A stretch of DNA of 64,000 bases from Cladochytrium replicatum (Eukaryota; Chytridiomycota; Chytridiomycetes; Cladochytriales; Cladochytriaceae): assembly GCA_025526935.1 (NCBI GenBank), contig JAHLKD010000113.1, positions 103,140 through 167,139 on the forward strand, written 5' to 3'. Position numbers and translations under genes: made by a program. Under the pieces are notes generated by a model. That model had not been told where the DNA came from. It did not search any database and saw only the letters and a program-made list of their open reading frames with translations. Shown piece after piece: positions 13,701 to 61,969 of this stretch (its first letter is position 1; every line of letters begins with the position of its first letter).

Positions 13701-14091
13701 ATGGCACCAACAACAGCCCCCAAAACGAAGACTGCAGCGCATAAGAAGAAATCCGGTATGAAGTTGCCATAAGACTCAATTTCAGTTTGCTTGATGCTGT
13801 ATGATATTTGCAGCTGGTGGTGGGTCAAAGAAACTGAGTGCTTTCCAAAAGTATGTCAGCAAGGTGGGAGCTGCATGTTCTCCGCCTCTCTTCATACTTC
13901 AACTCTTATCAAATAGGAAATAAAGCGAATGAAAGAGGACAACCCGAACAAAGATGCGAAAGAGATTTTCGCGGAAGGTAAATCGCTCTCTTCGGGTTTA
14001 AATGTGTCACAATTCATTTGTGAATTTCTTTTGCTCCCTAGCTGTAAAGAGTTGGAAGGACTCTCCACAGAATCCAAAGAACTCGAAATGA
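13701..14091 (+). CDS. small YABBY/HMG-like protein
   Basis: Four short exons, from the ATG at 13701 to TGA at 14089-14091, give about 70 residues. A basic N-terminus (TKTAAHKKKS) leads into KKLSAFQKYVSKEIKRMKED and ends in a segment with AVKSWKDSPQNPKN. This is the pattern of the small fungal proteins assigned to the YABBY-like/HMG superfamily (SxYQxFxxxEIxRLKxxxP...WKxSPxNPK), thought to bind DNA or act as transcription co-factors. All four exons are needed to build the domain and every joint preserves the frame. The family call is from memory of the motif; function is not established. Confidence 0.78.
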
Positions 14092-14252
14092 TGTTGCGCC
14101 TAGTCAACTTAAGTGTTTTGTTTTGCATTCAATAACTTAAGCGCTTGCTGGAAAGGCTCCACTAAACCATGTAAAAGTCTCGAACGCCCCACGTATGAAG
14201 TCTGGTATATCAAGGGACTGAAGAGTCCTATTTCAGTTTGTAAAACTCCAAC

Positions 14253-15278
14253 CTAGTTTCTGGCGTCACCATCGTTTAGCGCATTGACAATCAAAGTGCG
14301 CAAAGACCAATAGCTCGAAACTGTCCCCAAAATGCCCAAAACCAGTGGGTGCAGAATAGGTTTTTCCAACGTCCAATGTACCGCGATAGGAATGTCACAG
14401 AAAAGCGAAAGTAGCCTCCATCGAACTTCTCGCCGGCTCTGCACCAGCATTCCCAAGTCGCGCTTCAAAGATGCCTGCTCTAGCGAAGTATCGACAATCA
14501 GCGGAGGGGGTCCGCCCTCTGTGCTCGGCGACGTTGGCTGGATAGGGCCAGCATAAGTCATCAATACGTCCAACGGAATGGATCCGGATGCGGCAGAGAC
14601 GACTTCCCTCGACCACGCCTCCTTGTACTTTAACCTATGTATCTGCTTCCGGATGACCGAAATCTGGCTCGTCATGGATTGCACTTGCCGGACTTTCAGG
14701 ATGAGCTCTAAGAGCAGATACGAGAACCATCCGAACGAGGAGATCCGACTCCATCTCTGCACGGTACGAAGCGACTTCCATCTTAACACACCGTGGAACG
14801 AGAGGTAGTAGACGTGCTCCATCGGGTAGAGCAAGAAAAGCGCACCAATCTGTCCGATCTGAATGAGCCGCTCGATTCGCTCCTCAAATGCATCGTTATC
14901 TGTGTCGTTCGCTTCGTCGCCACTTTGGGTCTCGAGCCCGTTCCCATCTGGAATGTGTCGGTGACGGACACGAGGCTCTTTCCACATGTTGATGATGGCG
15001 ACAAGGCGGTCCAACAGCACGACGGAGCTGAGGAAGCGGAGAGTCATGCGGGTAGTTAGGATGGGATCAACCAGGGAGTCGAGACGTTCAGCGAGCGATG
15101 CAAGTTTGCGCGAAATGAATCCATGCTGTTGCGGATGCCGATTTAGACGCCGCAACAACCGCAATGTTGCAATTTCAGTGCGAAGTGAGTATAGCAAGAG
15201 GCGGTAAATCTTGTCGGCTCCATCGAGGCTTCCAGCGACCGCAAGAAACGCAATGAGGAGCTGGTGGGAGGAAGCCAT
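14253..15278 (-). CDS. PEX11: peroxisomal biogenesis factor 11 family protein
   Basis: Peroxisomal membrane protein that elongates and divides peroxisomes. Single exon on the minus strand, 341 residues from MASSHQLLIAFLAV; an ATG 23 codons further upstream (15347) is possible. The family pattern is visible. An N-terminal segment includes LDGADKIYRLLLYSLR and a basic amphipathic stretch follows (LRLLRRLNRH). TTRMTLRFLSSVVLLDRLVAI comes next, then an acidic linker. A middle hydrophobic region is YPMEHVYYLSFHGV with FGWFSYLLLELILKVRQ. The C-terminal hydrophobic segment is LVLGILGTVSSYWSLRTL. A region of about 60 residues before the end is Pro/Ser-rich and looks lineage-specific. It most resembles the PEX11C-like type. 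Confidence 0.8.
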   Translation of the reverse strand: MASSHQLLIAFLAVAGSLDGADKIYRLLLYSLRTEIATLRLLRRLNRHPQQHGFISRKLASLAERLDSLVDPILTTRMTLRFLSSVVLLDRLVAIINMWKEPRVRHRHIPDGNGLETQSGDEANDTDNDAFEERIERLIQIGQIGALFLLYPMEHVYYLSFHGVLRWKSLRTVQRWSRISSFGWFSYLLLELILKVRQVQSMTSQISVIRKQIHRLKYKEAWSREVVSAASGSIPLDVLMTYAGPIQPTSPSTEGGPPPLIVDTSLEQASLKRDLGMLVQSRREVRWRLLSLFCDIPIAVHWTLEKPILHPLVLGILGTVSSYWSLRTLIVNALNDGDARN

Positions 15279-15448
15279 GCGGCTTTGATGAGCCAAACGG
15301 CGATTTAAAAGTTTAGATCTAGTGGTATTTTTGTAAAGTAACAACATCTGGTAGTCAATGTACAGAGGGGAAAGAGAAAAAAAGAATAAACCACCAAAAT
15401 TAAAGCAAAACGAAACACTGCAAAGAGTTTGAACAAAACGAAGTCAGA

Positions 15449-16530
15449 TCACAAGAGGGGTGAAAGAACTACGGTCACAATGCATGCAACCACCAAAGAT
15501 GCAACAACACCGCCCACTTTTTGTGCCGCACTTTCTATGATGATGAAGGGGTTCATCTCTCCGGTTACAAGGGCGTTTGCGTAGGCTTCACGTTCTTCAT
15601 AAGACATCTTCGCAAGCGCATTCTTTGCTTCCCTCGAGATAATGGCATCTTCGTCCCCAGCGTAGTATGATATGTATCCATCGTCGCCACTACCGGTGGT
15701 GGTACCATTCACGTCGATCGTACCCGGGACGACGTAAGCGTTCTTATCGGCGTCAAGTACAACTCCAGTCTCCTTGGGAGGATGCAACGGGTCGTAGTCG
15801 AGAGTTGGGGACGCGGACTGAGCGGGGGCTGACGTTGTGGAGGTGGTCCCAGTAACGGATGTTGCAGCAGCCGAGGTTTTGGCTGGAGAGGGAGAAGGAC
15901 TTGGCTTTGGCGAAGGCTTTGGGGACGGGGATGGAGAGGGTTGGACGTACCACCACCCATCGCCCGACTTTCCGTCGGCACCAGACATCTGCGCAAAGTT
16001 CTGAACCCAGTAGGTCCCCTCCTGTCCAAAACCAATAGCATTGTAGTTGGGGTTGACCATGTTGGCGTAGTGAACCGGCGAGGCTTTCCAGGCTTCGAAT
16101 ACGTTCGCATCGTAGGAGTAGCCCACTGCCACGTTTTCGCCGTTGTATCCAGGTCTGAAGCCCAAGCAGCGTTGCATACTATGTGCGCGCGGAAAATTAG
16201 CCAGTGTTATAGCATGAACTGGACGGCAGCATACCGATCACCCCAGTTCTGTCCATTTGGGCTGTAGTGCTGCAAACAAAGAAAGTAAGTTTAGGACGGA
16301 CTCGGAGCGCACTTGTGCCAAAGACTGACCGTCATCACACCCATTTGGTACTGCTCCAGCGCATGGAAGTGGGCACAGCCATTCAGCCTCGAGTCCATCG
16401 TCAGAGGCTTCAGCCTAAGCGAAGCACGGAGGTTGTTGATGAGCTGCAAGTCTACTGAATAGATGATGGCATCGCAGGTGCCCGAGATGGCCAGAACGGC
16501 CAGAGCTGCCGATACAGCTTCGACTCTCAT
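15449..16530 (-). CDS. secreted CAP-superfamily (SCP/PR-1) protein
   Basis: Extracellular or wall-attached CAP-domain protein; fungal members often bind sterols or lipids. Three exons on the minus strand: 16530 to about 16331, a 35-nt middle exon near 16236-16270 (HYSPNGQNWGD), and about 16180-15449. It starts with a signal peptide (MRVEAVSAALAVLAISGTCDA). Domain landmarks are LINNLRASLRLKPL, the alpha-helix ending CAHFHALEQYQMGVMT with the metal-ligand His, GENVAVGYS, and the CAP signature region HYANMVNPNYNAIGFG and YWVQNFAQ. A long Pro/Ser repeat linker (PSPKPSPKPSPSPSP) and a Ser/Thr-rich stretch follow. The C-terminus is hydrophobic (VVASLVVACIVTVVLSPLL), as in GPI-anchored proteins. It diverges from the AlkB gene across about 110 bp. 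Confidence 0.85.
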
Positions 16531-16639
16531 TATCGAACAGTCGACACTAAAATTGTTGGCGAAACCTGGCAATCGCACCAACACGACCCTGGAAATCAAA
16601 GCCACCGAATTGTTCCAATTTTTTTGAAGTTCGTTGACC

Positions 16640-17955
16640 ATGGGCAGGATACGAAAGAACATCAACCCACCTCCAGACTCGCCGCTGTGGGCGAATCAGA
16701 CTCCAATCAGGTCGGCAGAACGATTTTTCAAACGGAGAGACAAACCAGTTGACCTATCCTGCTGCATCGATTTTCGAACCCGCGCAAACAGCAAGGAAGA
16801 AGAGAGAACAACCATCCCGGCATACATCAACAACAATATCGACATTTCAGAATCGGACCTTCCACATGAAATATTCGCGTCGTGCCCAGAGTTTGGCAAT
16901 CATAGCAACGCAGCAAATCGCACCGCGCAAGTTCTTGGCGAAGGCCTCATCGTCATTCAGAACCCTTTCACGCCAGAAGCGGAGAGGAGACTTATCCGTG
17001 AGTGCCTTCGTGACTACACCAAGCGTCCCAACGTCAACAATCTCGACACACATTACGTGATCGATGGGAAGGACACAATTTCAGGGTTGTGGCAGCTGTA
17101 TGAAAAGGTCTATTCGGGCACAGTGAAGGAAGGCGAAACGGGCCACGCATTGCCGTTGCGAAATAAAAACAGGGATGCGGACTCTGAGGATGAAGGCGAT
17201 CCTGCTGGCGAGAAGGTGGCTCGTGCAGCCGTCGAGAGCGGTGGAGTGATTATCAATCCACCAAGCAATCCGACCCCGCTCATCGATCGTCCTCTCCCAG
17301 TCACCGAGGCGATCCGCAAGATTAGATGGACATCACTTGGATATTACTACGACTGGACTCGCAAGGAGTATCACAACCTTCACACCGGGACCCCTCCTCC
17401 ACCAATCCCGACTTTGGTCTCTAATCTGTGCCGAGCGGTCGTGAAGGCGATCGAGCACATTACTGGCTTTCCAGCTGAAAAGTACAATCCTGAAGCAGGA
17501 ATTGTAAATTTCTACGGCTTTCCCGATTCTCTGACTTCGCACCAGGATCGCAGCGAGCTGGACGCGGAAGCGCCCTTGGTCAGCTTTAGGTACGTCACCA
17601 AGTCACATGGTAGGGCGATACTGACTTCAAAGAACTAGCCTTGGATATTCCTGTATATTTCTTATCGGGACAGAATCCCGAGATGACCCGCCTACTGCGC
17701 TGGTCCTGCACAGCGGAGATATCTTGGTCATGTCGGGCAAAAGCAGGAGAAAATTCCATGGTGAGCACCTTTCAATGACGGTCGATAACGTTCTGACAGT
17801 TCGCAGGTGTGCCACGAATATTGGAGGGAACACTACCAGAATACCTGCGACGAGATGCATGTGTTGATGGAGAACAGGATGATTGGGGTATCTACGGAGA
17901 TTTTATTGAGAAGTCTCGCATCAACGTAAACGTCCGACAAGTTTTTCCTACGTGA
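16640..17955 (+). CDS. AlkB-type 2OG-Fe(II) dioxygenase, ALKBH1-like
   Basis: Oxidative demethylase of nucleic acids; ALKBH1 homologues act on tRNA and DNA adducts. Three exons: 16640-17590, from about 17639 to 17759, and about 17808-17955, giving about 405 residues. The start is the ATG of MGRIRKNINPPP. The jelly-roll core shows LGYYYDWTRKEYH, VNFYGFPDSLTSHQDRSE with the iron ligands His and Asp, then FLIGTESRDDPPTAL and the late-domain HSGDILVMSGKSRRKFHG with the third ligand His. VPRILEGTLPEYL and the Arg-containing RINVNVRQVFP close the 2-oxoglutarate site. Ligands and Arg are all present. An insert of about 60 residues before the core (Asp/Glu-rich around DADSEDEGD) looks disordered. The ALKBH1 subfamily is inferred from the LGYxYDWTxKxY block. 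Confidence 0.88.
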
Positions 17956-17998
17956 TTTAACCCAAACGCGAACGAAGCCACACCATATTGTTTTTACG

Positions 17999-20446
17999 AT
18001 GGAAGCACTGAAGCTTTACAAAGATTTGCTGGTGCTGTCAAAGAGACTGGATATTCCGTTCCTTTCCCACTTCTTCAAAATTACTGGGTGGTCTCACAAA
18101 ACAGAAAAAATGCATCTCCCAGATGGAACCGTACTGATTACGCACACACTAATACAACCACGTCATCTCAAAGACACCATTTCAAACTTTCACATACGCC
18201 AAGTTGAGTCCGCTGACTATCGATCTGCGTATCATCAAATTTGCGACTGGTTCTACGGGTGGAACGTTACCGATGGTGCAAACTTTGAAATCGAGAGCGT
18301 TTCGGATACGGGATTGGAGAACGATGTGAACGGGACAGCTGATGAAGATGATTCCGATGATGAAAATGGAGAAATAAGAAAGAGTAAAAGTGATCAGAAT
18401 GAAGGAAGTGATGACGGATCTGCAGACGAAGAAAGATTCAGAATGCGAAGAGTGCCCCGCGATATTAATTTGCAGATGGAAGGGGAAAGAGTAGAATGCG
18501 ACAGAATCTTGAAGTCTTTTGAAACACTTTTTTCAATGAGTCGCCGCATCGTGAAAAAGACCGTGCTTGATATTGAAGAAGAGCTCCCGAGTCTTGGAGA
18601 AGGTGTTAGCACGTTGCAGAATAGAGGTGGTGCTACACGCGAATATGGATCAGACGACAGCATTGATGAAAAAGTCGGTGAGAACGGAGGACTTGCTGAA
18701 TTGGAACGAGTTTGGGCAAAGCGTGGTCGCAGCAGGGATGATAAGAACTTGGCACCTGCACTTAACAAAAGCGAGGGTCAATCGGTCGACTTTGGAGACA
18801 GTCTGGATTCAATAGATCGAGAGATTGATCGGTTGATGAAGGCGTCCAAAGTTACCATGGACGGGGTGGTTGTTAAGAAAAAACCAAAAGCGGAGCGTAC
18901 TTCAAAAAGCAAGAAAGTGACATCTCGACCTGCATCTGCCTCTACGGTAATGGACGATTCTCTTGAGCACAGTGGGTCGCAAAGCTCGCGCTTCAAATCT
19001 GAGCCATTGAATACAACCAAGGACGGATCAAACCCGTTGGAAGTGAAGGCAATGCTCAAGCAAGTGCCAGATGCTGAAGAAGAAATGAAGAGAGCCCTGC
19101 TGCGGGACATCAACCACATCTATCGGGAAGTCGACAAAGCAACAGAATATACGCTTGTAGCTGTTACTTGCGGGATCGTCGTCCTCGGTTTCAGCCAGTT
19201 GCTTCGCAATCGCGAAAAGTACGCGAAAATGTTACAGATGCTCAACGAGCTTGGGTGTGAGTTTGTCGCTACTGTTGTCAAGACAGTGTACGATCTGCTC
19301 TCGAGAGAATTACCTGGGGAAATTGAAACGGCCGACGTTCGACACCCACCTACGCTCAAGGCAAAACTGAAGAAAATCAACGAGCTTCGTCGATCCGAGA
19401 CTGGAAGCAAGCCAAATATTCGCACCAACAAGCTACATTCGAAGTTTGCTCTTTTGAACGACCTGTTCAGCACAATCGATGTCCATGTGTTCCCACACTT
19501 TGTTTGGGGCCATCAAGAAGGTTGCAAGTCAATTCAATATTCTGCGTACGACCCCTCGTTGTGGCTCACCGGAGGATATGACTGTACAGTTCGGATTCAT
19601 GATCTTCGCAAACCAATCGCGAGCGAAAGCGGTCCGGTTGTCAAAAACGGACAACCAATCAGTCCTATCGCCGTTGGCGGGATGTGTTTGGCACAGTACG
19701 TCGGCCATAAATCCGTGATAACGGACGTGCGGTTCGTCAGGGATGATACCCACATAGTATCCTGCTCTCTGGATCGTACGTTGAAGATCTGGAACGCCCA
19801 AAGTGCAACTTGCGAAAAGACTTTGGTTGGCCATACTGATGGAGTGACAACTTGCGACATCACACCAGATTTTCGTGTGATCGCTTCTGGATCAATCGAC
19901 GGCACCATTCGTCTCTGGGACTTTATTACAGGACAACCGCACTGTACACTCAAGAAACACAGTCGATGGGTTAAGGTAGTCCGATTTACGCATGACGGGA
20001 AGTACCTCATCACTGGTGGACTGGATCGTCGCATCTTTCTGTGGGAAACAAAACTGCTCATGAACGCACGCAACGTTACACATGCACGATGCTTTGAGAA
20101 TCATGTGGACTATATCTTGGATGTAGCTTCAACGAAACCATCGCTTCTGCTCTCAACGTCGAGGGACTGTACCGTTCGATTATCCGACTACATATCCGGC
20201 CAAGAGCTGCATGTGATCAAACTTGGAACGTCCTGGGCATGCACAGTTGCCTTTTCAGGGGATGGAGAGTTGTTCGCGGCTGGATGTTTGGACAGTCAAG
20301 TGAACATTTATCGGACGAAAGGTGCGGATTTAGTTCGAAAAGTTCGAATTTTCAATTTGGGGATCTTGTGTGTGAGATTTCCAAGTGACTTGAGTCATCT
20401 GGTTGTTGGGACTGTCGAAGGCTTCCTTCAAAAGATTCCTCTGTGA
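17999..20446 (+). CDS. WD40-repeat protein with acidic N-terminal half
   Basis: A single uninterrupted 815-residue frame, unusual in this intron-rich window. The first 110 residues form a helical domain (MEALKLYKDLLVLSKRLD; QICDWFYGWNV). They open with a pattern reminiscent of LYR-type helices, but the Arg is Lys, so I do not call it LYR. Residues about 110-370 are Asp/Glu/Ser/Lys-rich and probably disordered. Residues about 375-480 are helical with one moderately hydrophobic stretch (TLVAVTCGIVVLGFSQLL). From about residue 500 there are six to seven WD repeats, for example SLDRTLKIWNAQ, SGSIDGTIRLWDF, TGGLDRRIFLWE and STSRDCTVRLSDY. It is a scaffold by fold; its complex is unknown. It lies 43 bp after the AlkB stop and 100 bp before the Suv3-like start. 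Confidence 0.85.
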   Translation: MEALKLYKDLLVLSKRLDIPFLSHFFKITGWSHKTEKMHLPDGTVLITHTLIQPRHLKDTISNFHIRQVESADYRSAYHQICDWFYGWNVTDGANFEIESVSDTGLENDVNGTADEDDSDDENGEIRKSKSDQNEGSDDGSADEERFRMRRVPRDINLQMEGERVECDRILKSFETLFSMSRRIVKKTVLDIEEELPSLGEGVSTLQNRGGATREYGSDDSIDEKVGENGGLAELERVWAKRGRSRDDKNLAPALNKSEGQSVDFGDSLDSIDREIDRLMKASKVTMDGVVVKKKPKAERTSKSKKVTSRPASASTVMDDSLEHSGSQSSRFKSEPLNTTKDGSNPLEVKAMLKQVPDAEEEMKRALLRDINHIYREVDKATEYTLVAVTCGIVVLGFSQLLRNREKYAKMLQMLNELGCEFVATVVKTVYDLLSRELPGEIETADVRHPPTLKAKLKKINELRRSETGSKPNIRTNKLHSKFALLNDLFSTIDVHVFPHFVWGHQEGCKSIQYSAYDPSLWLTGGYDCTVRIHDLRKPIASESGPVVKNGQPISPIAVGGMCLAQYVGHKSVITDVRFVRDDTHIVSCSLDRTLKIWNAQSATCEKTLVGHTDGVTTCDITPDFRVIASGSIDGTIRLWDFITGQPHCTLKKHSRWVKVVRFTHDGKYLITGGLDRRIFLWETKLLMNARNVTHARCFENHVDYILDVASTKPSLLLSTSRDCTVRLSDYISGQELHVIKLGTSWACTVAFSGDGELFAAGCLDSQVNIYRTKGADLVRKVRIFNLGILCVRFPSDLSHLVVGTVEGFLQKIPL

Positions 20447-20546
20447 AAGCTGCTCGATTCCTATCCCGAATGCTCCTCGAAATATACTAAAGAAAGTTAA
20501 CTTCTTCCGAAATGGCGCAGTGACATATTTTGATGGCCTACCAACA

Positions 20547-23500
20547 ATGAGGCCCTTCACGATCGTCTCGGGCCGGCAGCGCTGGCTGGAATCAGCGACG
20601 CTTATCAGAAGAGGTAATCTCTGTGCGTGCTGTTCTGATATGAAGAGCCGTGAGATACCTGCAGCGATGCGGAATGCGTCGTCTTTTTCGCTTAGAAAGG
20701 ATGACAGCAAGCCGAAATTGGAGGACGGGCAGTCGGATACATCATCGAGTGGAACGGAAAAGAGAGCCAATTGGAATTCAAAGTCGGATGTAGTTGGAAT
20801 GACGAAAGCAAGAAAGCTGGATCTCAATCCGAAGCGCAAACTGCGGTTCCAAAAGCTGATTGAGAGCAAGCCTCCACCTCCACCTTTAAAACTATCAACT
20901 GCGGGGAAAGGAACACCTTTCGATGACGTACTCGGTAACTATATACTGAAAAGCTGCTTAAATCGATCCGTGCTAAACCATGCTCCAGAGATGAAATGGT
21001 ATTTGAATTATGTGGGGGAAAGCGAGTATACACTTCGACGATGTGCAGCGTATGGACTTCAAGCGAGAGATGTGCGGATCTACATGCCCAAGTTTTTGGA
21101 TGCATTGATGGACGACGAGCTCCCATACCTCCGACGCAATACAGTTCTTCTTGCACTGAAACGGAACAGTAAGAATGTTGTGCCGTGCTTTACTTACCAG
21201 ATTCTCAAGCCAATATTTAGTTTCGATGGATTCGTACGTTATCCCGGGTTTCTTTCGATATGCAGCAGACCACATGCCATCTATCCCTCAACCACTGGCG
21301 TCTTTCATCGAGGTTTGCGATGTAACAAACTTGGAAACGTTCTACCCAGGCATTGCTGCCGCCTCTAACGAACAAAAGAAAGCGTAAGTAAGTTAATAGC
21401 AGTTTGTATGCATGCTGATGCGTCTTATGCAGCGAAGGGTGGAAATATATTCTGCATGTGGACACAGTTGGTCTAATGCGAGGAATTGTTAAAATGCTTG
21501 TGCGAATGCTTTCGAGTCAGAATGCAATCTTTGTTGCTTCCCATTCAAGGACTGCCGCGTACGCTGCGCGATACGCGAAAAGACTTCTCGATGCTGCCAG
21601 GGTACATGGAGACGATTCGCAACCACATTTGTATCTCTGGACCGAAGAGAAGATCGAGCATTTTGGTGGAGAGTATGCACCGATCGACAGGACACTATAC
21701 AGGAACGCAGTCATCTTCACAACCGTGGACATGGTAGGGCACATGACAAAGCTGCACCGCCAGCGTCTGTACGACTTGGAGCAAGGTCCTACCGAAAGTT
21801 TTGATCCATGGTTTGATGTGGTCGCACTGGATGATTTCGATCTCGCTGCTGATCCAGCTGATGGATGGAAGATGTCCTCTGCTCTTATGAGTAAGAAATC
21901 AATTCTTTATCTGTTTCTACGCTGAATATGTTCTTTTTGAAGGTATTCCGGGAAAGGAAGTGCACGTCTATTGCGATGAGAACGTGGCTAAAATAGTTCA
22001 ATCAACTTTGGATCACTTTGGAGCTAAGGTGACAATGAAATATCTAGTGTCATCGAAGAAGATTTAAGTCTGCTTTATGACGATACAGTCTGAACGGAAA
22101 GTTGGCTTCCGGCCTCGTGAGCTTGTCCCTACACTTCTCGCCTCCTCTCCAACAAAGCGTTTGAAGCCCGGCGACTGTATCATTATGTTTTCTCGAGCAA
22201 AGCCGCGCCAGATTGCTGGAGAGATCTTTAAGCTTAAAGAACAGATAGAGCGGCAAACCTCGTTTACGTGTGCGGTGGTGTATCCTGGGCTTCCTGCTGG
22301 TACCAGAGCACAATTTTTTGCACGAAATAGAACTAAATTGACGTTCTAAGGCGTTCAAAGCTCGGAGATTCGGCAGTTCAACAAGCAAAAGCGCCAGATT
22401 TTAATTCTTCATCCCGACTGTGTTGGAATTCATGGTGAAGTGTAAGTTATGAGAATATTTTCATTAAAGATTACTTATTTATCCCTTCCGAATATAGCAC
22501 AGTAAGAAGGGTTATATTTTCATCCTTCATAGAGACACGAGGTCGCGAATTTTTTGAAGAAGCAACATCCGAATGGCTCAATCCCCAACGAATTAATGGG
22601 GAGAATAAAAGCGAACCACTTCCTGCTCCCACTGTGAAGCAGGTTGTACCTTCGGAATTCACAATGGTAACCTCCGCTGATCAGCGAAAGACACACAAAA
22701 CATCCCGAGCATTAAGGACACGGGCTGTGCAGGGGGTGTTGTGGAAACTACGGCGAACCTCTTTACGACTCTTGGGCTATTTCCGCGGCCGAAAGTCTAC
22801 CCGTAGATTGATCGCAGTGTAAGTTTTGCTCGCCTCTAAAGAATTGCTGATCAATGTGATGAAAACAGGATGAACAACGAAGAAATCGACATTGTGAAAA
22901 GGATCGCTGAGATGTCACCACCACCATCTGCGGTATGCTTGAGTACCATATACATTGTTTCGCCTCTGAAGATGTATAACAGTCGCTGCACTGGCTCCCC
23001 TCGATCGAGCACTTCCAAGTTATTTCCCAGTACATCCCAGATCGTGATGTCGAACAAATTCTTGTATGCTCGAACCTCATATCTTTGTCCAGCTAACAGT
23101 TTGGTTTTCCTAGATGTACATGCGCATCATGTCAAATGATCACGTAATTAGCTCGCTTCGGCTATTACAAATGCCCCACAAGCACAAGGTTCTTGACGGC
23201 GTTGTGCTTACACCTCAACTTCAACGCAGCTATTCGGAGAATATCAAACTTCAGTTTTCCGTACTGGAGCGCTACATTATGATGAGAGCTCCCGGAATCT
23301 GGACGATCGAGGCGGCGCACCCGTTGTCAAAGCTGTTTTCCAAAATTGTCGAGGCGATCCTTTTGTACGGCAGTGTCGGCGCTAGTTGGAATTCTGCACT
23401 CTCCAGCAGAACAGGGTTGAACGTGGAAGTTCTGGATAACTCGGAAACCCGATTGTCTCTGCTATATGCTGCCATGAAGAGTTACGCTTGGATGAGGTAC

Positions 23501-25293
23501 TTTATTTCTTGTTGTGCTTTTCACAACAACATTGAAAAATGTCAACTCGTTTTAGTGCGTTCTTGCCCCAAGTATTCCCAGATTTTATGAGTGCTTATGA
23601 AAAAATGAGCATGATTCGAAAATCATTCCGTGCCCATCTTTCGAACTCTGGAACGAGGGGAGAAACGGTAGCCCGACTTTCCGAAGATCCAACGGTTCCC
23701 GCCATCAACAAGTTCATCAACGAGAAGGCGAACATTGTTCAAAACAAGGAGATGGAACGCATCTCGAAGGAACTTGGAATTCAAGGTGCTAAGCTCGCTA
23801 GAGATGACGACACCGACGTTTTCAAAGGCTTTGCGGAACAAGCTCGTCGTGGGACTCCTTCACAGTCGAACTCGTCAAGTGTCAACTTAGACATGGATGC
23901 AATCTCCCGCCTTATCAGAGCGGGTGGTAAGAAGAAACCCACGCTTGCCGCCAGGATGGCCGTCATTTCGAAAGAACAAGCGACGAAGGTGAACGCTTGG
24001 ATTCAGCAGCTCGCGCAAATGGGACAGTCTTTCCGTGGAAAGGTTGAGAGCTTTAAAGCTGAGCACGAAAAGTTTCTCCAAGGTCAAACAGATGTCGATG
24101 ACGATCTTGCGAATATATTCGACGATAAAGCGATAAAGCGTGATTTGAAGGAAGACATGAGAGATTTGACCAGACTCGCTCAGAGCTCTGTAAAGCTTGG
24201 TGATGATGAAGACGACTCCATATCGAGTGCTCTCGACGAAGCATTGAGCGCTGGAATGCAATTGATCGCCAAAAGTGAATTTAAAACACCAGTTCCTGCC
24301 GTCACCGAAATTCCCAAGGTTGAAACTGCCGTCGACAGTCTACCTGTGGAGGGAAGATTATTCGACCACGTTGATATTGAAGTTCGTTCCCTCAACAATC
24401 GAGACTTGTTCGAAACGCCTGTGACCGAAGTACCCGACCAGGAAACTAGGGATGAGCTGTTGGAAGAGGACGAAGTCGTCGAAGATCGTGGAACAAGATC
24501 CGTACAAGAGATCATTACAGACGCGTTGGAATTTGTTCGACCCGGTGATGGCGGCTCGCTTCTGAAAGAAGCCGTGGAGGTCAAAAATGAAGTTCGTGAA
24601 GGCGCCATCGAGTACGCCGAAATCGAAGACTATGAAGATGATTTTGAAGAGGAACAGAACGACACTGACACTGACGATGAGACATTGCTTGATGCGGTCT
24701 TGTCCGGCCTTGGGTTCGATAGCGCGACAGAGCGAGCAAAAATAGCAATGAGTATAGCGGACATGACTCTTGGCACCACAACCCCGAGGACACAGCCGTA
24801 TGTCACCTGGAAGGACATCGCGCACACGTTCTTGGGCTCTAGCGCAAATGTGCGACAAAACATCCCACTCACCGTTGCTACCGTACAACTGTACTCAGAG
24901 AGTGTCGATCAGGTGATGAAGGGAAAAGTTGCGCCAATAGACCTCAATGCGCACATGACGGATCTGAAGGTAGCTTCGAAACGTGTAATGGAAGGCGGGA
25001 AACAGATCACTTCCGTCAAGGATTTGCTCGACATTATTGCGGAAGATCACTTGTTCCGAGCTACGCATTCTGCTAGATCATTCTTTGGAAGGCAAGGACG
25101 GATGGACGACTTTGTAGTTCTGGAGCGGCAGTCGGCACAGGGCCAAATTGACAACGACATACCCAGTCTGATGGACGTTTTGCGATCAGAGCAAAAGGGC
25201 CAACGAGCGAACTTGTTGCTTCCCATGTCCTGGAGGATGCAAGTTGCGATTCCATCGCAATCGCAACAGGAATATTCCGAGATTTCTGAATAG
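20547..25293 (+). CDS. Suv3-like protein lacking helicase catalytic motifs (pseudohelicase)
   Basis: Homologue of the mitochondrial RNA helicase Suv3/SUPV3L1, which with an exoribonuclease forms the mitochondrial degradosome. Start MRPFTIVSGRQRWLE is Arg-rich and presequence-like. About ten exons align with Suv3 in order: DVTNLETFYPGIA, YILHVDTVGLMRGIVKML (Suv3 has ILHVGPTNSGKTYxAL), FTTVDMVGH (TVEM), DVVALDDFDLAADPADGWKM (VIDEIQMxxDxxRGxAW), KEVHVYCDENVAKIV, KPGDCIIMFSR, CAVVYPGLPAGTRAQ, LILHPDCVGIHGE (VATDAIGMGLN), IRRVIFSS, then a segment where QIAGRAGR is absent. The C-terminal domain continues through FLPQVFPDFMSAYEKM. A further 570 residues follow, largely in one exon (about 23554-25293), acidic (EIEDYEDDFEEEQND) and ending QSQQEYSEISE. 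Walker A, DExH, and motifs V and VI are all lost, while frames and introns stay intact over 4.7 kb, so it is probably an expressed non-catalytic protein rather than a dead gene. Total about 1,400 residues, twice the normal Suv3 length. One weak point is the joint around 22640-22830, where two frames compete. Confidence 0.72.
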
Positions 25294-25316
25294 GTTTTGT
25301 TGATTTCTAATAAATT

Positions 25317-26342
25317 ATGGCATATCCACCCCTGTGGCGCGTGCGCGTCTTCAGCATGACTCGAGTGTTGGTCGTGCGGTGGTATCCACCTCTGCAAGCG
25401 AGGGCATGGATGGGAATGGGGCTTACTCCCAGAACCGAGGCCATGATCTGCGCACATAGCAACATTCAATGCCGCGGATTTTCTAGAACCGCTCAGAACA
25501 GATCTCCGAAATGGGATCCGAATTATATGGACTGGAGAGAAATGATTTTTTCAAAAATGTGCGGACGAATGATGGCTTTTCTGTTTTCTAACTTCCAATA
25601 CAACTAGCCGTGGAAGTAGTGAAGAGATTTGGATATGCGGGCGTGATTCTCTTTGGTATGAACATGACGTGTTTTGGCAATATTTTCGAACTGAAAAAGT
25701 TGCGTGTTTAGGCTTATGCGCGTTTGGTAAGGCTGGGTTCAATAGTGTTTCGGTCTGGTATTGATTGTCGCCTTCCAACAAAGGTGTCGCGGGCTACCAC
25801 CTCACTGCCGAACTGCTTAGCCCTTCAAGTGCGACCGCGATCTATTCGGATGCGCTTGAGAAAATCAAGGAGCACGAAGAGATTAAGAATTCGCTCGGTG
25901 AGCCATTAATCGGGCATGGATCTGGGCGGCGGCATAGGCTGACTTCGCGAGAGGTCGCGGGAAGCAGAGAAGATGACACACGAAGGGTGATTGTCAATTT
26001 CGCTGTCGAGGGCACAAACGGAGAAGCACCTGTCAGTGCTGAAGTCATCGAGGTATTTATCATGTCGGAATCACCTCATAACTTCAACCAACTTCTGATT
26101 CCTTTCCTGTTCAGAACATGAAGACAAAAACATGGGAATTTTACACCCTATGGGTTGACGTTATGCCGGATGTTCTTGCAAAAACGGATCCTGCGAGGGG
26201 GAACAAGGTCAAGCGTATTTATGTGATCGACCACAGACCTAAGAGGGCAAAGAACCAGTACAAGGGACGGAGAAGAAGGTGGATGAGGGGTAGCGATGTG
26301 GATGAGGAAGATCGGCCAAAGGGAAGATTTGGATTCCTCTAG
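25317..26342 (+). CDS. TIM21: mitochondrial import subunit Tim21
   Basis: Inner-membrane subunit that links the TIM23 translocase to TOM and to respiratory complexes. It begins only 23 bp after the preceding stop. The N-terminus is Arg-rich and presequence-like (MAYPPLWRVRVFSMTRVLVV; CRGFSRTAQ). After two or more introns comes the membrane segment, reassembled as GYAGVILFGLCAFGVAGYHL. The intermembrane-space domain follows: TAELLSPSSATAIYSDALEK, NSLGEPLIGHGSGRRHR, RRVIVNFAVEGTNGEAPVSA and FYTLWVDVMPD. These match the Tim21 consensus (LFSPxSxxxIYxxAxxKIKxH...LGxPIxxHG). The C-terminal tail is strongly basic (KNQYKGRRRRWMRG). Exon joints near 25500-25610 are not fully resolved; 25674-25732 contains two very short exons. 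Confidence 0.85.
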
Positions 26343-26452
26343 ATTTATCAGCAATGCAGAAATGTAAACTTCCTTCACTATTTAAATAGCCCGTATCCTA
26401 TATTCCGTGACATACAACCAGGAAAACTGCATCGTGCTTTCATGAGAGCATT

Positions 26453-26930
26453 CTATTGTTTGGGCTCGCCAAACTTTGGCTCGTGCACGATTCCGGCCCT
26501 CCATTGTCTCGGATGCGGCGTCTTTGTCCAGCGAGGAACAAAGTCCATTGGTTTCACACCGTAGCGATATCTTTTGCTCTCCACCCAATATTTTTCGCTT
26601 GCGGGCATTTCTGATTCCTTTGGCATCGTCTTGGCGAGATCCTAAATAAACAGATCAGAGATTTTTTAGAAAACCGGTACTATGTAGAGCAGCATACTTC
26701 AACGTACAAGTACATGCAGCTTGACTTTTGACTCTTCGAGTTTGGCAATCACATCGTCCACGCCTCGCAATCGCCGTCGTTGGCGCAACTTCTGCATTGG
26801 TGTCAGCCTGAAAATCCTCTTCCTTCCACAGCAAAAGCCTTAAGAATAATTAATCATTTTTCAGAATGCGAGTTCCTCACCGCGTAAGGCCACCAAGGGC
26901 AACCAACGTCGAACGGAAAGCGCCGAACAT
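26453..26930 (-). CDS. MRPL31: mitochondrial ribosomal protein mL60 (MRPL31)
   Basis: Fungal large-subunit mitoribosome protein. Three exons on the minus strand, 26930-26881, 26807-26708 and 26641-26453, give 112 residues. The start MFGAFRSTLVALGGLT is the family's MFGPFRxTxxxxGGL signature and doubles as the import signal. QKLRQRRRLRGVDDVI, PKESEM, KYWVESKRYRYG and FVPRWTKTPHPRQW follow in the order seen in mL60. The protein is very basic, as expected for an rRNA binder. All joints preserve frame. It is convergent with TIM21 (26342), leaving about 110 bp between stops. Confidence 0.85.
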
Positions 26931-27493
26931 CTTGGATTTATTGCTGCTGTGCCACAACATTGGGGAAACTCGATATTGGATTCTTGGTCGAGTACTCTGA
27001 ATAGACGACTAAGCGCGCAGGATGGGTGGAAAGCTGGGATTCCTGATGCCGAAAGCATATCCGGCCACATGTATCGAATGCTATGAGCGACAATCCGTGT
27101 AAAACAAGACATGCTGTGGGCTGGGGCGTACAAAGAAGAGCATTTCTTCTCAGTGACACATTGTGCAAGTTCGATCCAATTCGAACTGTGATATTCTTTA
27201 TTGCACCGGAGGAGTAAATTATTGGATACTGAAGAACTTCAACAGTGCTCGTCGTTGAAAATATGACAAGCCATTGGAACGGAACTCAATCCTGTGAATT
27301 TAGTTGTCTATTGTAATGTGCCATTTCCCAAAAAAAAAAAGGTGCCATATGTAGATATAGAGCCATATAAGTGGTGGATAGATACTTATTTTCATCGAAA
27401 GAGAACTAAGAGAAATGAATAGAACATTGACAAACCAGCATACAAACGCACGTGGAATCAAACTCAGCGAAGATACACAGAGGAAATACGCAT

Positions 27494-29417
27494 TCATCTA
27501 CCGTGTTGTGAATTTCGTAGTTCATCCATCGCTGCTCCGAGCCCTCTCGAAACACCGCTTCCGACGCCCCCCTGCCCATTCTGTGCACTCGCAGCCGCAG
27601 CTTCTCGAATCACAATCGCTCGAATGTCCTCCCTGCAAAGCGGACACCGACCCATTCGTCGTGTGAGCCATACGTCGACGCAGGATCTATGGAAACAGTG
27701 CCTACATCGTGGGAGTTCTCGCAGCTCGTCCCCACGCGTGAACTCCTCCATACATATCGCGCAACTATCATTCTTCAAAGCGGAAGCGCGTTTCGAGGGG
27801 ATGTGTGCTGTTTCGGGCGTTTTGGGCGGTGACTTTGGAGGAGGGGTTGGGGGGTTTGATACCATGGATGATGGCGCGGTTGTAAAGGAGTCACAGTCGT
27901 CGTCGCCTGGCTGTGAATCGGGTTGCTCAGATGCATTTCTCAGAGGCAGCTCCATCGAAGTGGAGGACACCGTGGTCAAATTTCTCTGAAGGCTGATTCC
28001 TGGAGACCGCACTCTCCGCACATCGCTCACACTTCTTCGAAGTGCAGCCAAGATCGATGGTCGTCGTGCGGGCACAATTCCTGCTGGCAGAATAGCAGCC
28101 GAGGACCGTCGCAATTCCCCCGCATCGGCAGTCGTCGCCGCGACCGGAGGCTCAGTGACTACAATAACACCCTCCTCTTCGGCAATGTCATTGAGCTTGT
28201 CTGCTTTGCTTGTTTGTTTTCCGCTTCGTCCAGTTGTACTCCGAGTTGAGTTTGATCGAAATATGAGCTGGGGGATGTAATCGAGCAAGCTCTCCGGTAA
28301 TATCTGATGCAATCTCAGCTGTATCGAACCTTCTGAATTGCTCCGTGTGTGATTCGGACGTCGTTGATTGTGCCAAGGCGGAACCACGGGTGAAGGGCCA
28401 CGTTCCATCGAAGAAGATCTCCCTTCTTCAGCAAAACGTCGATTTCGAGATGAGTATGGAAATATCGAAAGGCGACTGCATGTGTGCAGGCTGGCTGCAA
28501 AGATCGCGATCAAGGCGAATATCACTACGAGGATCAGACTCCATCCAACGCCATCTGTCCAAAGATCTTGCGCATTTGTCTGAGGAGCTATGTCGGTCGG
28601 CGGAGGATGGGTCGGAATTGTCGCGCTCGTGTTTACAATGTAGCCCACATCTTGGTCTGCTATTATTGTCAATTTCAAGCCATACGGACTTCTTGTGTCT
28701 CCTGACGTTAGGAATTTCGCGTTGAGCAGCTCAAAGGAGATCGGATCTGAGAGGAAGAAGACCCGCTGCCCATGATGACTGCTAGCCGTTACGTTGCCCA
28801 TCCAAGAGTCAAAGCGAATGGGGCTCGTGCTTCCAAACGAGCTATGGCGGCTGCTGTACAAGACTAGAGCCATGATATTCGGAGAGACTGATAAAGCACC
28901 GATAGAATTTGAAAGCAGCTCAAGGCTGCAATAAGATTGAAGCAGTGTTGTGCGATTCATGTTAGCTTCCGCGGTTAAGTTCACTGATGAGTCGATGCTC
29001 AAGAGCACCATCTTTGGAGCAGAGGAAGTGTATGGTGGCTGCGTTGTTTCCGCAAGACTTGGATACTTGCATTTTCTGTATGGCTGCAGAAAGATGCCCT
29101 GTTAATGGAAAGTTATGATAGTTTGCGGAAGCTAGTGGAGCAAAACGCACCTGGAGTGGTCCTCTTGCGACGCTTGTGCCATCCTTCTCAAAACAATACC
29201 CTGCCATCATTTCCGAAAACCCAAGCTCAAAAGTTGCTGCTGGTGCACGTTGCTCTGCGGCCGGTCCTGTGGGCAACTGGCTCAATGGAATCACGTCCGA
29301 AAATCTCAGCGCATAGCGGAAGTTTTGATCCGGGTCGGCTTGCGATCCTGCGTATGCGCTGGCTGTAGAAAGCGAAATGATTGACGACACAAATAAATTC
29401 CTCCAGATTCGGCCCAT
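27494..29417 (-). CDS. membrane RING-H2 E3 ubiquitin ligase
   Basis: Two exons on the minus strand: 29417 to about 29152 and about 29100-27494. The product is about 620 residues. MGRIWRNLFVSSIISLSTASAYA is a signal peptide. A luminal region of about 260 residues follows with several N-x-S/T sites (NMNRTTL, NTSATIP). One transmembrane helix (WSLILVVIFALIAIFAASLH) leads to a cytosolic Ser/Arg-rich linker. The C-terminal RING is CAICMEEF...LPRCRHCFHRSCVDVWL...CPLC, a perfect C3H2C3 spacing. This layout is that of PA-TM-RING-type ligases, although I do not see a clear PA domain, so the luminal domain may be diverged. It probably ubiquitinates membrane or endosomal cargo; substrates unknown. The upstream ATG at about 29487 is an alternative but would bury the signal peptide. 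Confidence 0.85.
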
Positions 29418-39779: not shown

Positions 39780-40500
39780 CTAGGAAGATGAGGCAAATGA
39801 CGATATTCGAGACCGCGTAGTGGAGTTCAGCTGCACACCGTCGATCGCGCGACGCCCGAGGGTTACAGACGCCAACGGGTATTCATGGCCCCAGCCATTG
39901 TTGAGGAAGATCCCGTCGGTCACGAGGAGGCAGGGGAGGTTGTGGTCCGGAACGAGGTTTCGCCAGCGCAATTCGCCTGGTACGGTCACGGAGTTGTACC
40001 AAAGTACCAGGGAGTTCGAATTTTTTGTCGATGAAGTAGCGGAGGAACCATAACATATTTGATGCGTCCGACGGCAAAGGTGCATGACACATACCAAGTT
40101 TATCGGCAAAGTAAGGGTTGAGCATATCGGCTTACCGGGGTCAACGTCCTTTCCGTGCAACAACTTTGAGGGTGTCTAGCCTACCATCGTCCCACTCCGA
40201 TATGTAGGTGCCAGTCATCTTGACGGCGTTTCGATGTGATGCATTGGTCCAGGCAGCAGGACGAATGGCCAGGCGTGCATGGCTGAAATCGAAATTGTGG
40301 GCAAAGGTTCGTCGAAATATGAAGGTATCGAAGTGGAGAAAGTTACGGAGATTGTAGATCTGCTTTCCGTCTCCGTTTCCAGGGACTGAGCGGCTTATAA
40401 AAGGATCACTGCCGCGCATTGTATGGGACGTCCCACCCTTTGTTGTGTTTTCAGTTAAATTCCGCCCATTGTCAAGTGCAAAATAGTCGTAGAGTCTGAA
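39780..40500 (-). pseudogene. remnant of a GH85 endo-beta-N-acetylglucosaminidase
   Basis: On the minus strand, just after the uL23 stop, frames encode blocks typical of GH85 (ENGase). SHTMRG corresponds to the HDMxGGY segment. [20 protein letters not shown] and [20 protein letters not shown] correspond to FIYFSH...WxNAAHxxGVxVLGTFITEW. WYNSVTVPGELRWRN and DGIFLNNGW correspond to WYDSVTxxGxLxWQN...DGIFxNYxW. The N-terminal part of the barrel is missing, the segment carrying the catalytic Asn and Glu (WLINIE in the family) is not found, at least one frame change is needed near 40120, and it stops at 39780. It is therefore a truncated, inactive copy. The part 40141-40500 is open but lacks its own start. 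Confidence 0.65.
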
Positions 40501-40526
40501 CGGAATATATTTTGTTAATTGATTGT

Positions 40527-41423
40527 TCAAATGAAACCAATCTGATAGAAATGTGTCAGTAGGAAAGTAAGTGCAGGCAATAAGCGAACTGCTTACCTTG
40601 TTGGCGATGTCGAGTGCATCCGCATCGGGGGAGAGGCGGACGTAAGCCTTCTTGGTACCGTCAGGGCGGACAAGGGTGTTGATGCGCTGAGAGTCGACAT
40701 CGTAAAGCTTCTTGACGGCATCACGAATCTGGCGCTTGTTGGCGCGGACATCGCAGATGAAGACGAGGGTGTTGTTGTCCTCAATCAACTTCATGGCAGA
40801 CTCGGTGTTGAGAGGGTAGCGAACGACAGTGTACTGGTCGAGGGGAGAAACCCTGGGCACAGAGCGGCGGGGGTACTTCGGCACACGGGGGAGACGGAGG
40901 GTCTTAGGGCGACGGAAGGTGGTGGAGGTGCGGACCTTCTTCACGGTCTTCTGGGTTCCCTTCAAGGCAGCCTTCTTGGCGGCAGCGGCTTTGTTCACCG
41001 CGGCCTTCTTTGGCACAGCGGCCTTCTTGTCAGCGGCTGTGTGTCATAATATAACCGGAGTTCAATAAATGGCATTCGAAAGATGTTCACTTGTGCGCCC
41101 AGTAATGGCTAAGGAGGGAAACAGCAACCACCAGAAGGCGACGGCTGCTATTGAACGGCCCCTCCGAAACCTGTTCACTCAACCCGTTCGACGATATCTC
41201 GACTTTGGGTAGAGAGCCAGTAATCGTCATGGAAGCCATCCAAAGCAAGGTTCGGGACATTGAGAAACAGCGCCCAGACAACCTTCTTCCTCCAATAAAC
41301 ACCGAGCTTGGATCGAATGGGTTGCGTTCTCTCTTCCGTGGCATGCTGTTTCCTCTCGAGCACAATAGCACTGTGATAATGAAACGACGATCTCGCACGT
41401 TCCACATACCTTTGGGACCCATC
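40527..41423 (-). CDS. RPL25: ribosomal protein uL23 (RPL25/L23a)
   Basis: Large-subunit protein at the peptide exit tunnel, docking site for SRP and chaperones. Three exons on the minus strand: a 13-nt first exon 41423-41411 (MGPK plus one base), a 374-nt intron, an exon from 41036 to about 40598, and a tiny last exon 40541-40527 encoding IGFI and the stop. The N-terminus is a Lys/Ala-rich eukaryotic extension ([16 protein letters not shown]). The core shows [36 protein letters not shown] and [19 protein letters not shown]. First-exon choice rests on phase and on the family start MxPKA. The large first intron is typical of ribosomal protein genes. Stop and last exon match the conserved IGxI end. 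Confidence 0.9.
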
Positions 41424-45230: not shown

Positions 45231-46662
45231 CTATTGCTTCTTTAGCAAGTGAACAGGGGCATCCTCTGCTACCAAAGCAGTTTTACCACCGATTGTCCCA
45301 ACAGTTCCTGAAAAATTAAAAATATTTATCAGCCAATTTCGAGAGATTCGAGTCACTTTTATCACCTGTTGTGCCAAATGTGGTGAAGCTGACAATGTCG
45401 GTGCGCGGTTCGATACTTGGCCAGCTGATTCCATTCGCTTTGCGGAGGGTGATCTCAACCTTGGTCGACAAAACTTCGTACTTTGAAAGTTCAGGAGTGA
45501 TGGGCTAAAATAATTACTTAAGCAAAATTGTCGCGGATGTAGATTCTACCAAAAATCACCTGAACCAATGGAGTGTGGTACTTGAACCGCTTTCCATCTG
45601 CGAGCTTGCCCTCCAGCAACAACTCACCCTCTTTGAACACGCATGTGGTGCTTGCTTTGTCGACCTTTTTGGCAAAGACGGAGATGATCACACTGGTCTG
45701 CGTTTGGTACCAATCTCGACGGCACTCTACATATTCCTCAGCCGAAGCCTGTTCGATGGGCCAAATGTCAGAATTCTTTATAACAGTCATGTAATGTCGC
45801 TGAACCTTCGGAGAATCAAGGAAACGGTGATTTCCTTTAGTGCAGCCTTGAATCTTCACAAACTCTTCAAACTCCAAGACCTTCCTGGAGCAGCAAGACC
45901 AACCCTACACCAAAGCTTTGTCAAGGGACTTAAAACTTCTTATTTTGAACTACCTTGCTACCCTCATGGAAAATTGGTGCACCAGGGTGGAATATGCACT
46001 CGCCCGCTCTCGAGCTCTCGTCGACATACACATGCCCGCATCCCCGACGCTTACACTGAGTTCCAAACGCGATCACAGCGTCCGCCGAGTCATGCAAATC
46101 TTGCTCTTTCGTTTCTGGTTCCTTCTCGACGTGTTTTGGCTGGAACGAGTCCTGAGTCGCAGGAGCGGCAGCTGCTGCATGGGGGGGAACGGATCCATAT
46201 ACCTCTTTCCCGTTCAGGTCGGTGCTGACTGGAGCGGAAGCAGCAGAAGTGGGAGTGGCAGCAGGTTCAGCTGCGGCGTGGGTACTGTGCTTTCCGACCG
46301 AGCAACCCTGGATCTAAAAAAGGAAATCATTTGACGTTTGCAAGATTAAGTTCCGAGATGAGAAAGATTTCATGAATGTTAACCTTGAGGAAATCATCGA
46401 AATCTGTCACACGTTTTGAGCAGCAGGACCAGCCCTAAATGCAGTGGTGTGTTCGTTGATAGCCAACTTAGAGTAGAAAATAAATACCTTTAGACCTTCG
46501 TGGAACACCGGTGCACCAGGGTGATGCTCACAGGAGGTCTCATGGTTATCAGATTCCACGAACGATTTGCCGCAACCTTTGCAAAGAGCGTTGCAAATTA
46601 GACGCCGAACTTTTCATTGCAAGTCGGTGCGCACCTTTGTTTGCGCATGTCAACGTGGCCAT
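45231..46662 (-). CDS. CHORD-CS domain co-chaperone (CHORDC1/Rar1-like)
   Basis: Zinc-binding Hsp90 co-chaperone. About six exons on the minus strand. The ATG at 46662 gives MATLTCANKGCGKSFVES, the start of CHORD-I ([20 protein letters not shown], then VTDFDDFL, then IQGCSVGKH). An Ala/Pro/Glu-rich linker of about 85 residues leads to CHORD-II ([49 protein letters not shown]). The CS domain follows (DWYQTQTSVIISVFAK, GKRFKYHTPL, VLSTKVEITLRKANGISW). A C-terminal exon ends DAPVHLLKKQ. All Cys/His zinc ligands are visible in both CHORDs. The plus-strand frame at 45575-46228 is its shadow. Its start lies 44 bp from the start of the divergent transferase gene. Confidence 0.92.
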
Positions 46663-46706
46663 CTCTTTCTCGCGTCCCCCTGCACGGTGGTTCTACCTGC
46701 TTTAAA
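46663..46706. promoter_or_regulatory. 44-bp bidirectional promoter region
   Basis: Only 44 bases separate the initiation codons of the CHORD protein (minus) and the Aat-like transferase (plus). UTRs must overlap or be extremely short, so the two genes probably share control elements. No specific site recognised. Confidence 0.45.
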
Positions 46707-58400: not shown

Positions 58401-58767
58401 CGTTTCCATTTGGGATCAGCATCAGCAATGGTAAGTGACATTTCGACTGTATCATTCATGTGAACATCAACGACACTTGCGGGGGATCTTCCTCTAATTC
58501 GAGCCGGTTCTGAAGTGGATGATGCTTGGTCACGTGATTGGCGGTCACGTGATTTGCGAGGAGAGTTCACTTCATCTGCCCACAGAAAATTTTCTCCATC
58601 AAAGTTGCTGGGCTGAGAGTCAGGAATAATTTCCTGAGGGGCGCGAGGGGGACACAGAGGGAGCATGGGAGTGAGCACGGCCAGAAGCGATGAAAATTTG
58701 GAGGGGTTGCGGCGGGCGGCGCGGCATGCGGCGCGTCAGGCGGAGCGCTGGGAGGCGGCATTGATTG
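55430..58767 (-). mobile_element. non-LTR retrotransposon (LINE), 3'-truncated and inactive
   Basis: Minus-strand element. ORF1-like frames lie at 58761-57520 (Ala/Pro/Ser/Arg-rich; SSLKITPTRRPASRARAEKN), broken by frameshifts. The APE-type endonuclease is at 57369-56767 (GTLNCRGLPLDFSDLLAWL, LVLTETHPL, PVVLMGDFNFR, SSIIDLFL). The linker and the N-part of the reverse transcriptase are at 56770-56159 and 56098-55430 (SAPGHDRLPAELYRP, GDITNYRPITLS, LDAAQAGFQSHHSG). The RT motif A aspartate region is deleted: FLDIQANRAILW here, against FLDIKAAYDTVHRPLLW in the second LINE. Homology ends at about 55430, well before the catalytic FADD motif. It is related to, but clearly diverged from, the LINE at 59.3-64 kb. 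Confidence 0.85.
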
Positions 58768-58803
58768 TGAGAGAGAGAGAGAGAGACAGAGAGAGAGAGA
58801 GAG
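58768..58803. repeat. (GA)n microsatellite
   Basis: About 36 bp of GA repeats, interrupted once by GACA, lying between the 5' end of the truncated LINE and the poly(T) of the SINE. Confidence 0.9.
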
Positions 58804-59105: not shown

Positions 59106-59184
59106 AAGCTCTTTTTTTTTTAACAATATTATTATTTACTTTGCATATACAATGCATAACAAAAAACAACACCCGAGCTAAGCG

Positions 59185-59315
59185 TTTTTTTTTTGAACTT
59201 CATAATATGTATTTATTGTCCAACCAATACATATCACCTGCTGGTGCAAAATCCAAATACAAGTGTAAAAATACACGTAAATTGGCAGCACATGGGGAGC
59301 CGTGCGAGCCGTAGG
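59185..59315 (-). mobile_element. extra copy of the LINE 3' end with its own poly(A)
   Basis: Nearly identical (one difference seen, CCTGCTGG against CCCGCTGG) to the LINE 3' terminus at 59338-59458. It ends in poly(A) (T at 59185-59194) and abuts the poly(A) of the full LINE. It is a 5'-truncated insertion or a tandem product of reverse transcription. Confidence 0.8.
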
Positions 59316-61967: not shown

Positions 61968-61969
61968 TG

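Follow-up and report, generated by a model that had tools for sequence, protein, structure and literature searches.

The stretch of DNA considered here (64,000 nucleotides; hereafter the window) corresponds to C113:103140-167139 in a 50.5-Mb, 198-contig genome assembly of the chytrid Cladochytrium replicatum (Chytridiomycota, Cladochytriales). At positions 20547-25293 of its plus strand, the window contains a real gene which, judged from exon structure and alignments, arose long ago by DNA-level duplication of the nuclear gene that encodes the mitochondrial RNA helicase Suv3. The protein has lost the motifs for binding and hydrolysing adenosine triphosphate (ATP) and has kept the Suv3 architecture. 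We favour, with moderate confidence, a Suv3-derived pseudohelicase which is kept by selection and is probably an RNA-binding or scaffold protein, plausibly mitochondrial.

Gene model

The gene has a deposited counterpart (P0001, hypothetical protein BJ742DRAFT_840536 of Cladochytrium replicatum, 1387 residues), and the 12 exons of the window, once spliced and translated, reproduce it letter for letter. In a protein search, our first spliced model gave one match to this entry, with 98% identity and full coverage. The two models differed in a 54-nucleotide intron of the first exon (20935-20988) and in the intron 22029-22088, which has 60 nucleotides in the deposited model and 42 in ours; the 60-nucleotide choice places this intron no more than two alignment columns from an intron of the active paralogue described below. 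All 11 introns are of the GT-AG type and are 49-60 nucleotides long.

An initial annotation, made from the sequence, had given the same start (20547) and stop (25293), with landmarks in the Suv3 order and 4.7 kb of open frames interrupted by short GT-AG introns, and all of this agrees with the deposited model. The wording of some landmarks needs correction, as the protein reads TVDM rather than TVEM, VRRVIFSS rather than IRRVIFSS, and LPQVFPD rather than FPxVFPD. The final TR of the landmark CAVxYxxLPxxTR is located inside the intron 22300-22350; the spliced protein reads CAVVYPGLPAGVQSSE.

Descent from Suv3

The initial annotation had supposed a non-catalytic Suv3 paralogue, and had proposed a search of the same genome for a second, catalytic Suv3. 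A motif-complete Suv3 gene was found on another contig (locus C58:30500-39500), carrying HVGPTNSGKT, VIDEIQM, ASDAIGMGLNL and QIGGRAGR, and a pair of genes, one non-catalytic and one catalytic, is well supported by the sequence. In the genome, PF12513 matched in one place, within this locus (two matches, C58:34453-34661, minus strand), and PF22527 exceeded its cut-off solely in this gene (2 of 34 matches). The spliced model of this active paralogue, whose start codon is our choice, comprises 9 exons and 1074 residues, of which about 330 form a C-terminal extension of its own that includes a basic stretch (net charge +13 in 47 residues).

As judged from the alignments described below, homology of the window protein to Suv3 begins in the N-terminal domain and runs to where the C-terminal domain ends. 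The Pfam scores of the window protein lie under the curated cut-offs for Suv3/SUPV3L1 (DEXQc_Suv3, PF22527, E 4.4e-6, 26.8 bits versus 27; SUV3_C, PF12513, E 0.15, 12.4 versus 27), and Helicase_C matched with E 0.19. A phmmer search of the PDB sequences returned yeast Suv3 first (6f4a, E 9e-15) and human SUV3 second (E 2.5e-14), the best stretch being residues 386-573 of our first model; as a yardstick, the active paralogue matches human SUV3 with E 8e-124. A profile built from 32 Suv3 proteins scored 96.6 bits against the core in two stretches and stopped short of the Walker A region, which is aligned by means of a shared intron and the HV anchor.

The predicted model of the protein (mean predicted local distance difference test score, pLDDT, 65.5; predicted TM-score 0.62) displays the Suv3 fold, with an N-terminal, two RecA-like and a C-terminal domain, although it leans towards that fold because 31 of the 32 alignment rows were other Suv3 relatives. 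When this model was used for a structure search, Suv3 proteins were at the top, in agreement with the profile searches. Both checks proposed in the initial annotation, profile search and structure prediction, thus lead to the Suv3 family and not to another family, an alternative that it had considered.

The exon-intron structure bears on how the gene arose. Each of the eight introns of the active gene has a counterpart of the same phase in the window gene, six of them in the same alignment column and the remaining two offset by 5 and 2 columns and adjoining gaps; the window gene has three introns beyond these eight. Two intron-bounded exons (22 and 27 codons) are of equal length in both genes. 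The chance of sharing all eight introns would roughly be 5e-19 for exact positions and 9e-9 with a tolerance of 9 nucleotides, figures which are a guide only, because one of the eight exceeds this tolerance in the alignment. When the nine segments between shared introns were aligned to the paralogue, six outscored all 300 shuffles; the score of the N-terminal domain counterpart was reached by none of 300 shuffles in either of its two segments, the start of the first being our cut. In the core, 26% of the 386 positions that align with the active paralogue are identical, and among 15 proteins compared by raw local score, the C. replicatum Suv3 was the best (324, the next being 227). In the tree, the end branch of the window protein amounts to 10 changes per column, too long to give it a firm place. 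On the grounds of the shared introns and of the segment alignments, the gene goes back to a Suv3 gene with introns that was duplicated at the DNA level. Chance resemblance was rejected.

Catalytic motifs and RNA-facing surface

The replacement of HVGPTNSGKT by HVDTVGLMRG and of DEIQM by DDFDL, reported in the initial annotation, is seen in the alignment with the paralogue: none of the eight residues of Walker A (GPTNSGKT) and one of the four of Walker B (DEIQ, now DDFD) are identical. HPDCVGIHGE likewise stands at motif V, where the paralogue has ASDAIGMGLN (SDAIGMGLN becoming PDCVGIHGE, with Asp retained), and motif VI (QIxGRAGR) has no counterpart in the intron-bounded segment where it would be expected. 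Motifs Ia (2/17 identical) and III (3/17) are poorly retained. In contrast, identity to the paralogue is 7/12 in the motif IV block and 9/21 in block IVa.

Excerpts of PMC5758563 name Lys234, Thr275, Phe373, Lys375, Thr424 and Asp425 as RNA-contact residues of human SUV3. This numbering was confirmed on the printed chain for Lys234, Phe373, Thr424 and Asp425, and by neighbourhood for Lys375. Thr275 we take to be the Thr of TVEM; the motif Ia position was aligned by hand. The six positions read R, T, F, R, S and D in the active paralogue versus S, T, F, R, P and D in the window protein, so that four of six are equal, and the RNA contacts are better preserved than the positions of the ATP site. 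Because motif IV is intact and these four positions equal those of the active paralogue, the statement of the initial annotation that every helicase motif is gone is overstated: it holds for the ATP motifs, but not for motif IV, block IVa and the Asp of motif V. The TVDM site was located in an alignment (A2) which took 27 of 80 bacterial loci.

The place of the former motif VI is occupied by a basic stretch (15 Lys or Arg and one acidic residue in 47 residues). The highest net charge of any 47 residues of the window protein is +15, starting at residue 589, while the comparable part of the active paralogue reaches +7. Together with the survival of RNA contacts, this stretch provides positive hints, drawn from the sequence, of RNA binding.

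After the Suv3 part follows a C-terminal extension of about 573 residues (net charge -36). The initial annotation was right about its length (570 residues), while the acidity that it ascribed to the whole extension is found mainly in residues 1065-1214 (net -34). The protein, described there as doubled in length, is roughly so with respect to human Suv3 (longest chain 760 residues), but only 1.3 times as long as the active Suv3 of its own genome. The extension gave no Pfam match above the cut-off and does not significantly resemble the active paralogue's tail (score reached by 82 of 500 shuffles); a single-sequence model (mean pLDDT 41) was uninformative.

Overall, the window protein has in common with Suv3/SUPV3L1 the domain order, the introns and phases of the same-genome paralogue, motif IV, TVDM for TVEM and the structural matches, and differs in the lack of motifs I, II and VI, in the basic insertion at motif VI and in the long acidic tail. 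By sequence and predicted structure, the window protein combines loss of the catalytic motifs with retention of the fold, as a pseudohelicase of the Utp25 kind would.

A decayed twin and evidence of selection

The region C65:170000-179900 is a diverged duplicate of window positions 13852-28568, in pieces of 70-88% identity, some of them inverted. Stop codons and frameshifts interrupt the remnants of the gene that it contains, which correspond to residues 763-980 and 1357-1387; the remaining protein found no significant match in the same 9.9 kb. Comparison of the two copies gives 91 differences in 480 sites for codon positions 1 and 2, 69 in 238 for position 3 (Fisher P 0.003; Jukes-Cantor ratio 0.60) and 27 in 56 for intron sites. 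With one copy drifting and the other constrained, the ratio should be near 0.5-0.6, although part of the position-3 excess may date from a period when both copies were functional.

The twin has decayed, while the window copy runs through 1387 codons without a stop. In a neutral simulation limited to substitutions, 9 of 200 copies were free of stops at 2% change, and none of 200 at 5, 10, 15 or 25%. Given the open frame, the codon-position ratio and the simulation, selection has very probably maintained the window copy.

The duplication reaches beyond this gene. Window positions 13852-43000 are largely co-linear with C65:170000-200254, at about 70-88% DNA identity and with some pieces inverted, and the block would represent a large duplication in C. 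replicatum, either segmental or of the whole genome, followed by differential gene decay. The piece searched around the active Suv3 has no such twin in its own genome, where one 187-base match besides itself was found.

Possible function

A scheme consistent with these data is that the Suv3 gene was duplicated at the DNA level, the copy on C58 staying a motif-complete helicase and the window copy losing motifs I, II and VI, required for ATP binding and hydrolysis. The latter would have kept the helical N-terminal domain, the two RecA-like lobes and the helical C-terminal domain. Of its RNA-facing surface, motif IV, TVDM in motif Ib and the motif V Asp would remain, and the basic insertion and the acidic tail would be later gains. 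Since the ATP engine is erased and the remaining architecture kept, the change suggested is from a motor to an RNA-holding or structural part. Such a pseudohelicase would hold single-stranded RNA or the surface of a ribonucleoprotein without ATP-driven movement, as a static clamp or scaffold, plausibly in mitochondria; because of the Suv3 ancestry, a mitochondrial ribonucleoprotein would be its natural place. Lack of ATPase activity, RNA binding, mitochondrial location and scaffold role are what we infer from the sequence, and the same applies to the place in the degradosome or mitoribosome that the initial annotation suggested for an RNA-binding or structural mitochondrial protein.

Precedents by analogy exist. 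Utp25 (Def), a nucleolar protein proposed as the first fully validated pseudohelicase in the excerpted text of PMC9539457, similarly combines a helicase fold with vestigial catalytic motifs; it differs in resembling DEAD-box helicases and in being common to yeast and man, whereas the window protein is of Suv3 origin and turned up in a single species. The Ssd1-type inactive Dis3L2 pseudonucleases, as described in excerpts of PMC8097288, also represent the conversion of a fungal RNA-decay enzyme into a non-catalytic protein, partly after gene duplication, but belong to a nuclease family and form an old, widespread non-catalytic lineage with known phenotypes. Among the open-licence literature matches listed, no title or abstract opening describes an inactive Suv3 paralogue.

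Several observations weigh against the pseudohelicase reading. The gene is known here from its DNA and gene model alone. The counterparts of two human RNA contacts, Lys234 (motif Ia) and Thr424 (motif V), are lost, and the Asp-Asp at the former Walker B could still bind metal. The active paralogue has a very basic stretch too, located in its tail. The predicted model is of moderate confidence and its input was dominated by Suv3 relatives, and the three remaining core segments align weakly (1, 10 and 21 of 300 shuffles score at least as high). No clear targeting peptide was seen by hydrophobic moment, a check without power, as the active Suv3 was not lifted clearly above background either. Lastly, among 5.8 billion proteins the whole protein found itself alone (E up to 1e-3), with no orthologue; at E up to 10, the core found four motif-bearing Suv3 proteins and no orthologue, and residues 815-1387 only themselves. 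As these searches required shared five-residue words, scored about 8000 candidates each and limited candidate length, distant orthologues may escape them, while a close orthologue in the proteomes covered is unlikely.

As to more specific roles, conversion of the helicase into a mitoribosomal protein or a ribosome-assembly factor, like the nucleolar Utp25, is a rather unlikely alternative. Utp25 itself would be a pseudohelicase precedent in ribosome assembly (excerpts of PMC9539457), mitoribosomes recruit lineage-specific, repurposed RNA-binding proteins according to the excerpted part of PMC8998825, and the basic insertion would suit ribosomal RNA; a point against it is that the location is itself presumed.

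We are more doubtful about a regulatory subunit of the mitochondrial degradosome, in which a dead Suv3 would sit on Dss1 or on the active Suv3 and limit RNA decay. Common ancestry with the degradosome helicase is in its favour, and one of five RNB-domain nuclease matches on four contigs of the genome could be Dss1. Yet the Dss1-contacting helix before motif I is unrecognisable in the window protein (FYPGIAAASNEQKKAEGW). Of the Suv3-Dss1 contacts described for yeast Suv3 in excerpts of PMC5758563 (Asn187, Glu190, Lys197 and Arg199), one of four (Asn) matches in the window protein, a weak test because the active paralogue matches none exactly.

That the gene is a pseudogene, or on its way out, is quite improbable: the decayed twin, the missing orthologue and the extremely long tree branch would fit, but the stop-free frame, the intact splice sites of all introns, the third-position excess over the twin and the neutral simulation led us to reject it. 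An assembly or gene-model error that makes an ordinary helicase look motif-less is hardly credible, found no supporting point, and was rejected, since divergence covers the whole core and not the motifs alone, the deposited model agrees, and a separate motif-complete Suv3 exists elsewhere in the genome.

The pseudohelicase reading may tentatively be taken further, although we hold this bolder form to be on the unlikely side: the protein could be the first pseudohelicase of the Suv3 branch, a Cladochytrium-restricted structural RNA-binding subunit of a mitochondrial ribonucleoprotein (mitoribosome or degradosome), with a basic RNA-gripping element in the place of the arginine-finger motif VI. 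Structural helicases without a motor seem to be rarely documented, and a motif-complete paralogue, shared introns and a decayed twin as neutral yardstick make a clean system for asking which surfaces of a helicase remain important when it no longer needs ATP. Should the protein sit in a mitochondrial ribonucleoprotein, it would add to the fungal RNA-decay enzymes remodelled into RNA-binding proteins.

Table 1. Features of the Suv3-derived gene, in window positions.
Feature	Position	Strand	Basis
Whole gene BJ742DRAFT_840536 (P0001), 12 exons, 1387 amino acids	20547..25293	+	spliced translation equals deposited protein
Exons 1-6	20547-20934, 20989-21168, 21221-21383, 21433-21890, 21943-22028, 22089-22299	+	deposited model
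Exons 7-12	22351-22441, 22498-22818, 22869-22932, 22983-23063, 23114-23496, 23556-25293	+	deposited model
Counterpart of Suv3 N-terminal domain, P0001 residues 127-243, to intron before motif I	20925..21383	+	two-segment paralogue alignment
Former Walker A (motif I), HVDTVGLMRG replacing HVGPTNSGKT	21455..21484	+	anchored comparison
TVDM, counterpart of TVEM (motif Ib)	21722..21733	+	alignment A2; SSTVEM versus FTTVDM, 3/6 identical
Former Walker B, DDFD replacing DEIQ	21830..21841	+	1/4 identical; within Pfam DEXQc_Suv3 match
Retained motif IV, GDCIIMFSR	22170..22196	+	paralogue comparison
Altered motif V, HPDCVGIHGE, Asp retained	22410..22439	+	paralogue comparison
Basic stretch at the place of motif VI (no QIxGRAGR)	22679..22810	+	net charge +14 in 44 residues
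Counterpart of Suv3 C-terminal domain, ending near FLPQVFPDF	23114..23616	+	weak SUV3_C match, E 0.15; ends by eye
Last exon: end of Suv3 part and C-terminal extension without known domain	23556..25293	+	Pfam; protein search
Acidic part of extension	24322..24771	+	net charge -34 in 150 residues

Genomic context and other observations

Directly downstream (25765-26121, plus strand) lies a gene that matches the mitochondrial import component TIM21 (PF08294, E 3.9e-13) and has a DNA match on C65. An open frame on the minus strand (40141-41016) contains ribosomal protein L23 domains followed by a match to glycosyl hydrolase 85, and would be either two genes or a fusion. Leu/Phe-tRNA-protein transferase is best known from bacteria; its domain (PF03588, E 3.8e-15) is present in a fungal open frame at 46617-47867 (plus strand). 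Further along (53928-63905, minus strand), open frames resemble, by eye, an endonuclease and reverse transcriptase of the LINE (long interspersed nuclear element) type.

In the genome search, the Walker A part of PF22527 also matched weakly, in every case without exceeding the cut-off (E 4e-4 to 0.004), at 32 places in open frames of 187-1479 amino acids, namely C126:936, C116:1683, C61:2322, C57:3280, C58:3894, C76:3964, C52:4627 and 25 other sites. Many have equal scores and 12 of the 32 lie at most 10 kb from a contig's first base, making them a candidate telomere-linked helicase family.

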